A stretch of DNA of 64,000 nt from Defluviitaleaceae bacterium (GTDB lineage: Bacteria > Bacillota > Clostridia > Lachnospirales > WQUN01), in NCBI GenBank assembly GCA_009779835.1, contig WRBD01000005.1:1-64000 (forward strand), in the 5' to 3' direction. Numbering within the stretch: the first letter of the stretch is position 1; each line of letters starts with the position of its first letter. The position numbers and the translations under genes were made by a program. The notes under the pieces were generated by a model. It worked only from the letters and a program-made list of their open reading frames with translations. It was not told where the DNA came from and searched no databases. Of the stretch, positions 7,906 through 14,841 are shown in pieces.

Positions 7906-8799
7906 ATGTATCCGATAAAATTTCTACCTATTAAAAAGGAAATGATTTGGGGAAGTGAGAGTTGGGAAATAACTTGCCGCCCGCGCGAGATGGGCATAAT
8001 TGAAAACGGTGAATTTGCGGGGAAAACTTTTGCGGAATTTATTTCAAAAAATCCGGCGGGGGTGCTGGGTGTTGCGCTTGTTGAAAAGGAGAATAATTTT
8101 CCGTTATTGGTAAAAATTATTGATGCGCGCGACGCACTTTCGGTGCAGGTTCACCCTGATGATAAATATGCGCGGTTGAACGGAACAGATGGCGACACAG
8201 GCAAAAGCGAACTTTGGTATATTCTTGAGCCGCCGACGGACGGGCATCTAATCATCGGGGTAAAAAAAGGCGTGACCCGCGAGACATTAGCGCAAGCTTA
8301 TGAAAACGGCACGGTTGAAGCGCAATTAAATCGTATAAAAGTTCAGCGCGGCGATATCGTGAACATTCCGGCGGGACTTATTCACGCGTTAACGCCCGGT
8401 ACTGTTGTTGCGGAAATTCAACAAAATTCCGATATCACATATCGCTTGTGTGATTTCAACAGGCTCGATGCGAATGGAAACCCGCGTGAACTTCACGTAA
8501 AAGATGCACTTGACGTAACGAATTTTTCCGGCGAATTTCAATATGATGAACACTTCACCGTGCAAAAAAAAGAAATTTCCGCGCCGTTTGCCGCAGTTTC
8601 AAACACGCAGGTTTTTTCAATTTACACAGCCGTAAAGAATTCCGCAATTATTGAAACATTTACGCACACAGTTTTTCTTCCCGAAAGACGCTCAGTTTTT
8701 ATTCCCGCCGCGCTCGGCGAATTTATTATTCACCCCGAAGCAGGAATAGTCACCCTCTTAAAGTCGGAACCATTTTGTCCACCTTTGCATATTATTTAA
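7906..8799 (+). CDS. manA: Mannose-6-phosphate isomerase, class I
   Basis: 297 residues. Interconverts mannose-6-phosphate and fructose-6-phosphate, using a cupin zinc site. Visible: MIWGSESWEI at the N-terminus, the zinc ligands in LSVQVHPDD and GKSELWYIL, and the second cupin strand VNIPAGLIHALTPGTVVAEIQQNSDITYRLCDF, which carries the third histidine and the substrate residues. Length matches the short Firmicute form. Start ATG preceded by GAGAGGAAT. Divergent from trpD; it could supply the sugar importer locus downstream. Confidence 0.93.
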   Translation: MYPIKFLPIKKEMIWGSESWEITCRPREMGIIENGEFAGKTFAEFISKNPAGVLGVALVEKENNFPLLVKIIDARDALSVQVHPDDKYARLNGTDGDTGKSELWYILEPPTDGHLIIGVKKGVTRETLAQAYENGTVEAQLNRIKVQRGDIVNIPAGLIHALTPGTVVAEIQQNSDITYRLCDFNRLDANGNPRELHVKDALDVTNFSGEFQYDEHFTVQKKEISAPFAAVSNTQVFSIYTAVKNSAIIETFTHTVFLPERRSVFIPAALGEFIIHPEAGIVTLLKSEPFCPPLHII

Positions 8800-9402: not shown

Positions 9403-10866
9403 ATGAAAAGGAAATTGCTTTTCCTTGTAACATTGGCAGTAATCGCAATGCTTGCATTCGCGGCTTGCGGCGGAGGAACACCTGACCAGCCGGCACAACA
9501 AGACCCTGTTTTCGGCATCGGAGGAGCAGGCGAAACCGAACAAACCGAACAAACAGGTGAAACCGGTCAAACCGAAGAAACACCCAATCAAGATGATCAA
9601 CCGCAGGAAAGACCGGTACCCGTAGTGGGAGAAGGTCAAACATTAATCAACTTATGGTCGTTCACCCCCGAATTACCACGGATAGTAGATGAATACAGCA
9701 GGCGTAATCCGGAATTTGCCGAAAGATTTGTAGTAAATCCCACAGTTATAGCTACAGACAATGGCGCATATCAGTTAGCGTTAGACATGGCTCTTGCGGC
9801 AGGCGAAGTTGATTTGTTCGCGGCAGAATCGGCATTCGTTGTAAGATATACGCAGGGCGATATGTCAGGTTATGCAATGCCCTATTCCGAGTTGGGTATT
9901 GAAAATCTGATGGGCAGAATTGCAAGTGCCGACCTTGCACAATACACCGTAGACCTCGGAACACGCGACGGCGAAGTTGTCGGGCTTGCGTTTCAACATA
10001 CCGGCGGTGCGTTAATTTATCGCCGCAGTCTTGCGCAACAAGTATGGGGTAACGATGACCCGGAATTTGTACGCACAAAAGTAGGTCCCGGCTGGGAGCG
10101 TTTCCTTGAAGCTGCTGCAGAACTTGACGCAGAAGGAATCAGTATAGTATCCGGCACAGGCGATGTTTGGCAAGCAGTAAGAAACACAGGCGGCCCGTGG
10201 ATTGTAAACAACAGAATCAATATACATCCCGAACGTATGGCAATGTATGATATCGCAAGAGAGCTTTACCAAAACGGCTGGATTAATGATTCGGCAGCAT
10301 GGGAAGGACCGTGGTTTGCGGATATGTCCGGCTCGGGCGAACGCCCCGTATTTTCGTTCCTCGGTCCTGCATGGTTAATCAACTATATTATGGCAGACAA
10401 CGCTGGCGACACCTACGGCGACTGGGCGATTACAGTGCCTCCCGCAGGCTTCAACTGGGGCGGAACATGGGTTATCCCCGCCAATGACATGAATCCCGAA
10501 GTTGCTGAAGGTATCCGCGAGCTCATCGAGTGGATTACACTTGACACATCAGACGAAGGTCTTCAATATCACTGGGCAGCGGGAACTTTGTTCCCGGGCG
10601 GCGGAACTAAAGACGCTGTTGCTTCCGGCGTAATTATGGCAGACGCAGACGGAACAATTCCGTTCCTCGGCGGTCAAAATATGTTTGAAGTATTCATTCC
10701 CGCCGGTGCATACGCAGACGGTACCCTCTTCACACAACACGACGAGTTAATCAACGAATGGTTCCTTGACGAATCAGTAATGCACTACGCTCGCGGCGAT
10801 ATGACACGCGAAGAAGCTCTCGAAGCATTCATGCTGCTGGTTAACGAAAACTTAGGCATTAGCTAA
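9403..10866 (+). CDS. Extracellular sugar-binding lipoprotein of an ABC importer
   Basis: 487 residues from the ATG at 9403, chosen for AGGAGG 8 bases upstream. Signal peptide and lipobox end at FAAC, giving a lipid-anchored cysteine, followed by a flexible Glu/Gln/Thr-rich linker. The mature part has the family-1 solute-binding layout (TLINLWSFTPELPRIVDEY at its start, WVIPANDM late). Captures a carbohydrate outside the cell for the two permeases downstream. A stem-loop after the stop may favour high expression of this gene relative to the permeases. Substrate not determinable; the neighbouring manA hints at mannose-type sugars. Confidence 0.9.
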   Translation: MKRKLLFLVTLAVIAMLAFAACGGGTPDQPAQQDPVFGIGGAGETEQTEQTGETGQTEETPNQDDQPQERPVPVVGEGQTLINLWSFTPELPRIVDEYSRRNPEFAERFVVNPTVIATDNGAYQLALDMALAAGEVDLFAAESAFVVRYTQGDMSGYAMPYSELGIENLMGRIASADLAQYTVDLGTRDGEVVGLAFQHTGGALIYRRSLAQQVWGNDDPEFVRTKVGPGWERFLEAAAELDAEGISIVSGTGDVWQAVRNTGGPWIVNNRINIHPERMAMYDIARELYQNGWINDSAAWEGPWFADMSGSGERPVFSFLGPAWLINYIMADNAGDTYGDWAITVPPAGFNWGGTWVIPANDMNPEVAEGIRELIEWITLDTSDEGLQYHWAAGTLFPGGGTKDAVASGVIMADADGTIPFLGGQNMFEVFIPAGAYADGTLFTQHDELINEWFLDESVMHYARGDMTREEALEAFMLLVNENLGIS

Positions 10867-10884
10867 AAATAATAAAACCTTTAT

Positions 10885-10922
10885 GGGGGAGAACCTTTTT
10901 GTGAACAAAAGGGTTCTCCCCC
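10885..10922. repeat. Palindromic repeat, copy 1 (intergenic, terminator-like)
   Basis: Two 18-base arms, GGGGGAGAACCTTTTTGT and its near-perfect complement, with a 2-base loop. The element plus the flanking AGGTTTTAATTCTA is nearly repeated inside addA at 31309-31350. Here it sits between the binding protein and the permease genes and may act as an RNA stabiliser or partial terminator. Confidence 0.75.
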
Positions 10923-10965
10923 TGAGGTTTTAATTCTAAATTTATCTTTACATAGGAGGTGAACC

Positions 10966-12882
10966 ATGAAAAAAGAGCGCAAGCTTGCTAAGAGGATTAA
11001 TTATGCCAAGTATGGTTATATATTTTCTATTCCGTTTGTGCTTGCATTTTTAGTGTTTCAATTGTATCCGTTAGTGTTTACTACGGCAATTGGTTTTACG
11101 AATATGCAGGGTTCTGTGATGCTTGGTTCAGGTTTGTCGGAAGCTACGTTTACATGGAATACAGTGGTTGACGGCGGAAGCGAATTGCAAATGCATAGCG
11201 ATGTTTCGCCCGAGTATGCGACAAACCGGTCGGTAACGTGGGAAGTGATTCCGGGAACGGGTAACGCGATAATAAATGCGAATGGTTTACTTACTGCAAT
11301 AGATAACGGCGCTGTAACAGTACGCGCAATGGCTAATGATGATTCGGGCGTGTACGATGAATTTGAAATAAATATACTCGGCCATATCGAGCCGGTGAGA
11401 GCAATCAATCTTGCGAACAGTACCCGCACGATTACATCGGTGGGCGGCACCTTACGTATAAATGCGGAAATTTATCCCGAAAACGCAACAACGCAATCCA
11501 TTGTGTGGGAAATTATTCCCGGTACCGGAAACGCGTTTATAAACGCAACAGGCTTGGTAACAGCCGTTGCGGACGGCACCGTGACAGTACGCGCAACTTC
11601 AATAGATGGCACAAACGTATCCGCCGAACTGGAACTGACTATAAGCGGTCAAACAACAAACGGGTTAACGCCGTTTGTTCCTGTTTCGGAAATAAGTGTA
11701 GTAAGCGAAAGTGCTGAAATTTATACAGACAACGGCATTTTACAATTGAGCATGGAAGTTTATCCCGCCGACGCGGGACGTTACAACGTATCCGGCGAAA
11801 ATATACGACATACACCTCCCACTGCCAGATGGGAAGTAATAAGTAAAACCGGTGACGCAAGAATATCCAATCAAGGTCAAATGACGGCACTTGCCAACGG
11901 AATCGTTATAGTTCGTGCAACCGCAACCGATGGCTCTGAAGTTTTCGGCGAAAAAGAAATTACAATAAGCGGTCAGGACGAGCCTTCGGTTCCCATAGCC
12001 GAATTAACCATTTCAAGCGCGAACGATTCAACGGTAATCAGCATAGAAGGACATACACTACGCCCCCTCCACTATTTCAATGACGTTTTAAATTCTCCGC
12101 TTTTCAGAACCGCTTTAAGAAACACAATTTTCATTTGGCTGATGAACTTTATTCCACAGATAGTTCTTGCGCTCGCGCTTGCTGCATGGTTTACAAATTC
12201 AATGATGAAATTAAAATGTGTAGGTTTTTTCAAAATAATGTTTTATATGCCAAATATTATCACCGCAGCGAGTATCGCGCTGTTGTTCAACACGCTGTTC
12301 GGGCATCCGATAGGGCCGGTGAATGATTTTCTTATGCGGGTTGGTTTCACCGGTGAATCTATAAACATTATGGTAGGAATTTTCGCAGAACCTTTCGGTT
12401 TCAGAATTTTTAACGCACAGTTAATTGTTGCGTTTATCCAGTTTTGGATGTGGTACGGCGTAACAATGATAATTTTAATCGCGGGCATAATGGGCATCAG
12501 CCCGTCCCTGTTCGAGTCCGCCGCGATTGACGGCGCATCCCATTTTAAAACATTTATCCATGTAACATTGCCGTCTTTGCGCACAGTTGTAGTTTACGTG
12601 CTTGTTACAAGCTTCGTAGGCGGTATGCAAATGTTCGATATACCGCGCTTGTTTAACAACGGACAGCCTCATAACTCTACGCTCACAACTTCGCTTTTTA
12701 TATTCCATCAAGCATTTGAAGGCGCGCAAAGGTTTAATCGCGCCGCCGCCGCAAGTATGATAATGTTTGTGATTATCTGTGTTGTCTCAAGTATTTTGTT
12801 CTTTGTGACGCGCGACAGAGATGCCGCCCAACTTCGCAGAGAATATAAAGCAAGAGAGAGAGCAAGGAGGGCGAGCGAATGA
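10966..12882 (+). CDS. Sugar ABC permease with three Ig-like domains inserted after TM1
   Basis: 638 residues, roughly double the ~300 usual for MalF-type permeases. TM1 (YIFSIPFVLAFLVFQLYPLV) is followed by ~280 extra residues (about 60-340) made of three bacterial Ig-like (Big_2) repeats, each carrying a copy of GTGNAxI...GxxTAxxxGxVTVRA. The permease then resumes with FRTALRNTIFIW and further membrane helices, and has the EAA loop ESAAIDGASHFKTFIHVTLP that docks the ATPase. The insert should face outside, where the binding protein acts. It overlaps the next permease by 4 bases (ATGA). No ATPase gene is adjacent, so a shared MsmX-like ATPase is probable. Confidence 0.92.
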   Translation: MKKERKLAKRINYAKYGYIFSIPFVLAFLVFQLYPLVFTTAIGFTNMQGSVMLGSGLSEATFTWNTVVDGGSELQMHSDVSPEYATNRSVTWEVIPGTGNAIINANGLLTAIDNGAVTVRAMANDDSGVYDEFEINILGHIEPVRAINLANSTRTITSVGGTLRINAEIYPENATTQSIVWEIIPGTGNAFINATGLVTAVADGTVTVRATSIDGTNVSAELELTISGQTTNGLTPFVPVSEISVVSESAEIYTDNGILQLSMEVYPADAGRYNVSGENIRHTPPTARWEVISKTGDARISNQGQMTALANGIVIVRATATDGSEVFGEKEITISGQDEPSVPIAELTISSANDSTVISIEGHTLRPLHYFNDVLNSPLFRTALRNTIFIWLMNFIPQIVLALALAAWFTNSMMKLKCVGFFKIMFYMPNIITAASIALLFNTLFGHPIGPVNDFLMRVGFTGESINIMVGIFAEPFGFRIFNAQLIVAFIQFWMWYGVTMIILIAGIMGISPSLFESAAIDGASHFKTFIHVTLPSLRTVVVYVLVTSFVGGMQMFDIPRLFNNGQPHNSTLTTSLFIFHQAFEGAQRFNRAAAASMIMFVIICVVSSILFFVTRDRDAAQLRREYKARERARRASE

Positions 12883-13868
12883 AACCCGGAGCCGGAACTA
12901 AAATCGCAAGGATTTTAATTTATTTTTTGTGTATCGTCCTGACAGTTCTCAGCGTTTTGCCGTTTATCATAATGTTTGTGAACTCAACAAGAAGCACTCC
13001 GCAAATTCAGCAAAACGCGCTTTCTTTCAGACCAAGTGATTATTTGATGGACAATTACAGGCATATGATGGGATATGTCGAAGTGCCGGTGCTGGACGCG
13101 AGAGGCAACGAAATTCCAAGCGACCAACGCCTTTATAATGCGCACGGCGAGCCTGTTCTTGATGCGAACGGCGAATATGTATTCCGTCCTTTAATGCAAT
13201 ATGAGCGGATAATAGAACGCGCATTTAACCCCTATGTCGGGTTTAAAAATTCATTATTAATTTCCATAGGCGTTACCATTCTTGCCTTATACTTCTCGTC
13301 TCTTACCGCATACGCAAACGTGGCATATCAATGGAGATTCAAAAACGCGCTGTTTGCTTTCATTTTATTTGTAATGATGATTCCGACGCAAGTTACCGTC
13401 ATCGGTTACTTCCAGTTTGTGTTCAGAATGGGCGGGACGAATGCATATTGGCCGCTCATTTTGCCGGCAATTGCCTCGCCGACCCTTGTATTTTTCATGC
13501 GTCAATATATGATTGCATCCCTTCCCTTAGACTTAGTAGAAGCCGCAAGGATCGACGGTGCGAAAGAATTCTCCACATTTAACAGAATAGTTCTGCCATT
13601 ATTAAAGCCCGCCGTTGCAACCCAAGCAATTTTCGTATTTGTTGGAAGCTGGAACAACCTGTTCCTGCCGTCAATACTGCTTACCTCAAACGAAAAGCGC
13701 ACCATGCCTGTTATGGTGCAATTATTACGCGGCGACATCTACGACACCGTTCTCGGCGCGCAGTACCTCGGTCTTGCCATGACCATACTGCCACTGTTCG
13801 TCGTATACTTCATCTTTTCAAAATATATTATCGCAGGCGTGGCTATCGGCGGCGTTAAGGATGAGTAA
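12879..13868 (+). CDS. Sugar ABC permease, MalG type
   Basis: 329 residues, about six membrane helices. N-terminal helix (ILIYFLCIVLTVLSVLPFIIM), a longer than usual first external loop with two DARGNE/DANGEY half-repeats, and the EAA motif EAARIDGAKEFSTFNRIVLP. Forms the heteromeric membrane channel with the preceding permease, to which it is translationally coupled. A terminator follows. Confidence 0.94.
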   Translation: MKPGAGTKIARILIYFLCIVLTVLSVLPFIIMFVNSTRSTPQIQQNALSFRPSDYLMDNYRHMMGYVEVPVLDARGNEIPSDQRLYNAHGEPVLDANGEYVFRPLMQYERIIERAFNPYVGFKNSLLISIGVTILALYFSSLTAYANVAYQWRFKNALFAFILFVMMIPTQVTVIGYFQFVFRMGGTNAYWPLILPAIASPTLVFFMRQYMIASLPLDLVEAARIDGAKEFSTFNRIVLPLLKPAVATQAIFVFVGSWNNLFLPSILLTSNEKRTMPVMVQLLRGDIYDTVLGAQYLGLAMTILPLFVVYFIFSKYIIAGVAIGGVKDE

Positions 13869-13881
13869 CTATGTAATTATA

Positions 13882-13916
13882 AACCGCCCGGGAAAATTTC
13901 CTCGGGCGGTTTTTTA
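13882..13916 (+). terminator. Terminator of the sugar importer operon
   Basis: AACCGCCCG (13882-13890) pairs with CGGGCGGTT (13903-13911), followed by a T tract. Confidence 0.85.
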
Positions 13917-13954: not shown

Positions 13955-14830
13955 CTATGACTTCCGAATACGAATAACAAGTAAAATTAAAGTTATTAAA
14001 AATGCCACAAACGCTGCTGATGCAATAATCCACGGGAGAAATACCGATAGGACGGAAGATGTGGGAATAATTTCCGCATTACCGACAACTTCCCATTCAT
14101 CGCCGCGCCTTACCATATTGATGGAAAGGGTTAATGCTTGTGTCCATTCGCCGTGACGTTCCCATGCTCCGGACGGTATTTGCACACTAAGAGGTGTGCG
14201 CCCGGTTACAATCGGCTCGTTATTATTGTTTTCGCGGGCTGTGTCGGCTATATACTCTACATTTTCGGGAATGGGAACGGGTTCGGGAACGGTAATAGGT
14301 TCAGAAGCAGGAACGGGTTCGGAAATAGGTACAGGTACGACAGGCTCATGAGTAATGCTCTCTGTAATGCTAACGCCAATGCATTCGTGAGGTGGCGGTG
14401 TGCCGTGCCGAGGATTTACACCAAACTCAAATATAAAATTATCATCATCAAGCCGCAACCCCTGTATATTGTGGGGGTAATCGGCGGCAAAAAAATTGTG
14501 ATGAACTCTTAAAGTGGTTAGGTTATTATTTTGCCGGATATCCAATTCTGTTAGGTCGTTGTCAAGTGCACTAATTACTCTCAAATTCGGCAGATACTCA
14601 ATGCCCACCAAACACCTGATTCCTTCCCCGTGCAATGTTAATTCCCTGACATCATACAAATGTTCGATTGTGAGGGGTTCGCCGTCATTTAGCTGCACCT
14701 GTCTGCGTATGAAATTACGAAAATTATCATCGCAAAAACGATACGAGAGGTCGTTTTCGTTCGCATAAACCAAATGCGTGGGCAAAATGAAAATGGCAAT
14801 CAATAAAACAAAACCAATTATTTTTTTCAT
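13955..14830 (-). CDS. Surface protein with leucine-rich repeats and C-terminal membrane anchor
   Basis: 291 residues from the ATG at 14830, which follows AGGAG with 9 bases between. Signal peptide (KKIIGFVLLIAIFILPTHLVYA), then an LRR-like region (LTLHGEGIRCLVGIEYLPNLRVISALDNDLTELDI, given here as two stretches: residues ~70-90 and ~90-105), a repetitive Pro/Glu/Val linker (PVPISEPVPASEPITVPEP), a beta-rich stretch and a final transmembrane helix (FLITLILLVIRIRKS). No sortase motif. Probably membrane-tethered outside. It lies 11 bases after the histidine-kinase gene and may be cotranscribed with it. Function unknown. Confidence 0.75.
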   Translation of the reverse strand: MKKIIGFVLLIAIFILPTHLVYANENDLSYRFCDDNFRNFIRRQVQLNDGEPLTIEHLYDVRELTLHGEGIRCLVGIEYLPNLRVISALDNDLTELDIRQNNNLTTLRVHHNFFAADYPHNIQGLRLDDDNFIFEFGVNPRHGTPPPHECIGVSITESITHEPVVPVPISEPVPASEPITVPEPVPIPENVEYIADTARENNNNEPIVTGRTPLSVQIPSGAWERHGEWTQALTLSINMVRRGDEWEVVGNAEIIPTSSVLSVFLPWIIASAAFVAFLITLILLVIRIRKS

Positions 14831-14841
14831 AAGATTCACTC

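Follow-up and report, generated by a model that had tools for sequence, protein, structure and literature searches.

Big_2 Domains in a Sugar Importer

The locus studied here raises the question of why a sugar importer should carry Ig-like domains within one of its membrane subunits, and whether these domains take part in transport or are simply tolerated. The window, by which the whole stretch of 64,000 nucleotides analysed is meant, contains an operon in the order lipoprotein binding protein (SBP), Ig-insert permease and partner permease, with the following features:

9403–10866, + strand: lipoprotein SBP of the importer, with lipobox LAFAAC, a 60-residue acidic tether and SBP_bac_1 (Pfam, E = 5e-9)
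10873–10932, + strand: strong stem-loop between the SBP and permease genes, a putative internal terminator (MFE −39.7 kcal/mol, z −7.6)
10966–12882, + strand: MalF-type ABC sugar permease with Ig-like insert, 638 aa (Pfam, PDB phmmer, AF2, VIA-align)
12879–13868, + strand: partner MalG-type permease (BPD_transp_1, E = 6e-19)
13071–13208, + strand: enlarged first extracytoplasmic loop of the partner permease, ~46 aa (orthologue comparison)
13881–13912, + strand: intrinsic-terminator-like hairpin ending the operon, 12 pairs and a T-run (consensus match only)

The reading frame of the Ig-insert permease is open throughout, with AGGAGG preceding its ATG. The C-terminal part matches BPD_transp_1 at aa 389–612 (Pfam; 29.8 bits against a cut-off of 26.4), and the core has the type I importer TMD fold, aligning with SugA over 276 residues in VIA-align. 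The NCBIfam MalF equivalog profile reached 58 bits, below its cut-off of 392, and judged by its sequence the permease is not an enteric-type MalF. From sequence and structure comparison it is classed as a MalF/SugA-type carbohydrate ABC permease (CUT1, BPD_transp_1); the operon supplies an SBP and a MalG-type partner, and a MalK-like ATPase with an OB domain is encoded in the genome, at G000:C6 near 25.3 kb, as it is once in each genome searched.

Elsewhere in the window, an ORF at 13955–14839 (− strand) encodes a possible surface LRR protein: it has a signal-like start, matches LRR_4 weakly (E 0.05) and carries a hydrophobic segment at its C-terminus. A short mannose-6-phosphate isomerase-like protein of 297 aa is encoded at 7906–8799 (NCBIfam manA, 99.7 bits against a cut-off of 116.2).

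Domains and Boundaries of the Insert

An earlier note on this DNA described a MalF-type permease in which three Big_2 repeats separate TM1 from TM2, and on this Pfam, phmmer against the PDB, AF2 and VIA-align all agree. The permease is laid out as follows:

11002–11097, + strand: core TM1, aa 13–44, counterpart of E. coli MalF TM3 (PDB phmmer, AF2, VIA-align)
11161–11379, + strand: D1, Big_2, aa 66–138, with the first ~10 profile positions missing (Pfam, repeats, AF2)
11386–11643, + strand: D2, Big_2, aa 141–226 (Pfam; VIA Z 13.7–13.9 against the Big_2 domains of BglH and T5 pb6)
11674–11970, + strand: D3, Big_2 with a loop insertion (NVSGENIRHTPP), aa 237–335 (Pfam, alignment, AF2)
11986–12063, + strand: truncated fourth Big_2 unit, A/A' strands only, aa 341–366 (repeat alignment)
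12064–12879, + strand: permease core from TM2 to the C-terminus, with the coupling (EAA) region at ~aa 514–534 (BPD_transp_1; SugA Z 22.2, MalF Z 20.7)

Pfam places Big_2 (PF02368) in three stretches of the permease (E = 1e-22, 80.2 bits, above the profile cut-off), and the insert as a whole extends over approximately aa 66–366 (11161–12063), comprising three units and the first strands of a fourth. The span given for it previously, 11143–11970 (aa 60–335), does cover the three domains but ends too early. The AF2 model, for which an alignment of 50 sequences was the input (pLDDT 73, pTM 0.54), has TM1 at 13–44, beta sandwiches at 73–138, 146–226 and 242–335, strands at 346–351 and 357–359, and then the other TM helices. 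The last two strands, which belong to the truncated fourth unit, are present in this full-length model and absent when the insert is modelled alone (pLDDT ~26). This C-terminal half-unit might conceivably pair with D1, closing the insert as a ring.

For the middle of the permease, phmmer against the PDB gave matches to BglH, in its Big_2 domain, and to the phage T5 tail tube protein, with D2 lying on the BglH domain at an rmsd of 1.8 over 87 residues. In two of the orthologues from other species (L036 and L037), D1 contains a Cys/His loop at permease aa ~85–115, C-P-T-N...H-E-E-x-C-x-I-C, which the window permease does not have; from its residues, this loop might bind a metal or form a disulfide.

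Position Relative to MalF P2 and Other Known Systems

The earlier note placed the Ig-like loop of E. coli MalF at a different position from the insert, which the alignments contradict. Permease aa 14–50 align with MalF 61–97, and aa 388–615 with MalF 280–509 (phmmer against the PDB), so that the insert corresponds to MalF 98–279, the P2 loop. In E. coli MalF, which spans the membrane with eight TM helices, TM3 is separated from TM4 by a periplasmic domain of 180 residues (PMC2246101), and P2, residues 91–271, is in direct contact with MalE (PMC3150292). As MalF bears two extra N-terminal helices, its TM3–TM4 interval is the TM1–TM2 interval of a six-helix permease, and by alignment and model the insert and the P2 loop are topologically co-located within it. 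P2 gave no Big_2 match and has no detectable sequence similarity to the insert, and so function would be carried over by position only.

The type I importer TMD is common to the window permease and MalF of MalFGK2 (Z 20.7 with 9nxc_H), and MalF likewise has a large folded extracytoplasmic insert, but in MalF a single P2 of ~180 residues goes with eight TM helices, whereas the window permease, for which six core TM helices are expected, has three Big_2 repeats (~300 aa). The nearest solved fold to the core is SugA of the mycobacterial LpqY-SugABC system, which also works with a lipid-anchored receptor; SugA, however, lacks an Ig insert, its chain (277–285 residues modelled) aligning end to end with the core. 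Lineage-specific large extracytoplasmic regions of CUT1 permeases are also found in the Thermotogales, as a MalF loop at TM3–TM4 and a hydrophilic region in MalG (PMC2246101), although that paper describes them by hydropathy and not as Big_2 arrays, and belong to another clade with another substrate. D1–D3 are of the same profile family as Big_2 surface proteins, yet Big_2 domains elsewhere are usually in secreted or adhesin proteins, and here they lie within a membrane transporter loop. The literature searched held no relevant report of Big_2 inside ABC permeases.

The closest comparison is with a short-loop subfamily from Lachnospiraceae, Paenibacillus, Fusibacter and Spirochaetes (e.g., L047, L066 and L086), whose core identity is ~50–60% and whose SBP-permease-permease order is that of the window, with a stem-loop 3' of the SBP gene in those checked. 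The distance from the TM1 motif to TM2 is 49–58 residues in this subfamily, compared with 355–391 in the insert carriers.

Distribution, History and Selection

The earlier note had allowed that the architecture might be unique to this genome and trace to assembly error or recent recombination. Orthologues of the insert are, however, present in three other species of the genus, in separate assemblies (G006/L035, G002/L036 and G004/L037), and synonymous divergence is near saturation, which excludes both. The L035 permease is 74% identical to that of the window overall, and the L036 and L037 inserts are 45–48% identical when aligned to the window insert, although Pfam does not recognise them as Big_2 at E 0.001. 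The genus is one of termite-gut bacteria, and the insert-bearing relatives are, from their isolate names, termite-gut MAGs.

The earlier note proposed a search for the same architecture in other Clostridia. It was found in these congeneric species and no further: no other permease with a comparably long frame and insert was found across 392 genomes of the order, scoring the best three candidates per genome, and no permease with a Big_2 insert was among the Big_2 matches of 398 phylum genomes. Within this sample, a general clostridial architecture is ruled out. The loop is short in about 80 other loci of the subfamily, which range from Lachnospiraceae to Paenibacillus and Spirochaetes. Two phylum-level Big_2 matches with several hydrophobic segments were rejected for want of a permease domain, and a 520 aa ORF (L019) was rejected as a further carrier, its extension being N-terminal.

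The orthologue in a fifth species (G005/L038) keeps the flanking ATFTWN and has no Ig domains. In a core-only tree L038 is nested among the carriers as sister to L036/L037 (99/96), the pairing of the window permease with L035 being less supported (98/77), and this nesting suggests one gain and one loss as the simplest history. Two gains would be compatible with the tree, but would explain less well why the carriers have a junction (TWNTVV-GGS-LQM) and an order of domains in common. The enlarged loop of the partner permease is present in all five clade orthologues, including that of the Ig-less L038, and absent from L061, L047, L066 and L086; this clade-specific insertion varies in length from ~30 to 50 aa.

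Between the window and L035, the insert has a dN of 0.25 with a dS of about 2 (near saturation), and between L036 and L037 a dN of 0.21 with a dS of 0.98. The dN of the permease core is ~0.10 in each pair, placing the nonsynonymous rate of the insert at ~2.3 times that of the core. On these sequence comparisons the insert is held by purifying selection, yet evolves faster than the core. Each of the four carriers retains the three domains, their reading frame and their core residues, whilst loops and lengths differ. Identity between the two carrier pairs is 56%/51% for D1, 45%/37% for D2 and 41%/48% for D3, the membrane-proximal D1 being the best conserved.

Binding Protein and Likely Substrate

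It had been suggested that the insert replaces a free-floating receptor step. This does not agree with the presence of a lipid-anchored receptor gene in the window, with orthologues (64–74% identity) in all four related species searched, nor with the stem-loop that follows it, which is of the type associated with SBP excess. Similar stem-loops lie behind the SBP gene in relatives, and in cellulolytic Clostridia such structures are reported to keep the SBP in excess over the translocator (PMC9045158); the stem-loop at 10873–10932 fits these internal terminators of ABC operons and may likewise set an excess of SBP. In the closest relative, G006, the orthologous SBP gene (L157, contig G006:C1, 74% identical) is on a different contig from the permease pair (L035, G006:C11).

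The SBP tether is 60, 51, 50 and 42 residues long in the insert carriers, compared with 36 in the insert-less L038 and a median of 36.5 in 56 others (rank test p 0.001, which overstates independence given that the four carriers group into two related pairs). The acidic linker of the window SBP, residues 21–80 between the lipid anchor and the binding domain, is the longest among the 60 compared.

The nearest PDB sequence to the SBP is the cellobiose-binding protein 8bfy, and GH1 or GH3 glycosidases and a LacI regulator adjoin subfamily members in other species. On both grounds, the substrate is probably a cello- or other beta-gluco-oligosaccharide.

Possible Roles of the Insert

The role favoured here, tentatively and at somewhat less than an even chance, is that of a surface, similar to MalF P2, on which the tethered binding protein would dock or be guided. 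The importer is a CUT1 system with a lipoprotein receptor, MalF- and MalG-type permeases and a shared MalK/MsiK-type ATPase encoded elsewhere, in which the first extracytoplasmic loop of the MalF-type subunit gained three Big_2 domains within one termite-gut genus. Placed above the translocation pathway, the Ig array would act like the P2 loop, holding the binding protein, on its lipid tether, close to the transporter and aligning it. Most of the contact would fall to the membrane-proximal domain, whilst the two outer domains would be a spacer or touch the binding protein secondarily. It is the position of the insert, the enlarged partner loop and the longer SBP tether that favour this role. 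The site is one shared with P2, which touches MalE (PMC3150292), and retention in four species with D1 best conserved, together with a receptor orthologue and MalK-type ATPase in every genome searched, also argues for docking. Contact between the insert and the binding protein, as proposed in the earlier note, is considered plausible from this analysis. However, insert and SBP are both acidic (charges of about −22 and −49, respectively), which disfavours tight docking; L038, whose operon is otherwise complete and includes the enlarged partner loop, shows that the insert is dispensable; and the correlation of tether with insert reflects few independent events, the carriers forming two pairs. 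A wider proposal, that a Big_2 docking mast arose independently of the enteric P2 in the same loop, alongside an enlarged partner loop and longer tether, and so represents a convergent receptor-docking platform in an importer whose receptor is lipid-anchored, appears doubtful.

It is also conceivable, if unlikely, that a run of Big_2 domains landed in a permissive outer loop of the genus ancestor and has been tolerated since, folding independently and doing little harm. The restriction of the insert to four species of one genus, its apparent loss in a fifth, its faster nonsynonymous evolution with varying loops and lengths, and the variability of the partner permease's outer loops would all agree with this, but purifying selection across a near-saturated synonymous distance, and the retention of domains, frame and core residues in every carrier, would not. 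Less probable again is a spacer or anchor in the envelope, an Ig rod reaching into the cell wall or surface layer that would place or immobilise the importer, for example near surface-bound cellulases. The other Big_2 proteins examined in the genome and family are large and show no permease-like TM pattern, many have signal-like starts, and those of the family resemble surface or secreted proteins; S-layer proteins are among the Foldseek fold matches of the Ig part, although this similarity to S-layer Ig domains is one of generic fold; in a Pfam scan the permease matched none of the wall-binding, S-layer-homology or cohesin/dockerin domains, and a need of the transporter for anchoring is unsupported. 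Very improbable, judging by the residues of the insert, is a grip on long glycans, as the earlier note suggested, by a module that would pass these on to the importer in place of the receptor or in addition to it. Big_2 can adjoin glycan-binding modules, as in the Big_2-CBM56 tandem of BglH that D2 matches, and a plant-derived oligosaccharide is the likely substrate. The insert, however, has just three Trp (aa 92, 181 and 289), each at a conserved Ig-core position, with six Tyr and few Phe, which makes glycan binding less likely; no CBM domain was found in the permease by Pfam scan, and a normal receptor gene with its terminator-like stem-loop is present.

What has been found is a genus-restricted, conserved domain insertion in an otherwise ordinary importer, a local variation on a well-known machine. 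If the insert is decorative, the TM1–TM2 loop would be permissive to domain insertion, which may be of minor use in protein engineering. If it does serve in docking, type I importers would have reached a receptor-docking loop by two independent routes, and the four carrier species, set against their insert-less close relative, would form a natural experiment, helping to separate the roles of the loop in receptor retention and alignment from the transport cycle.
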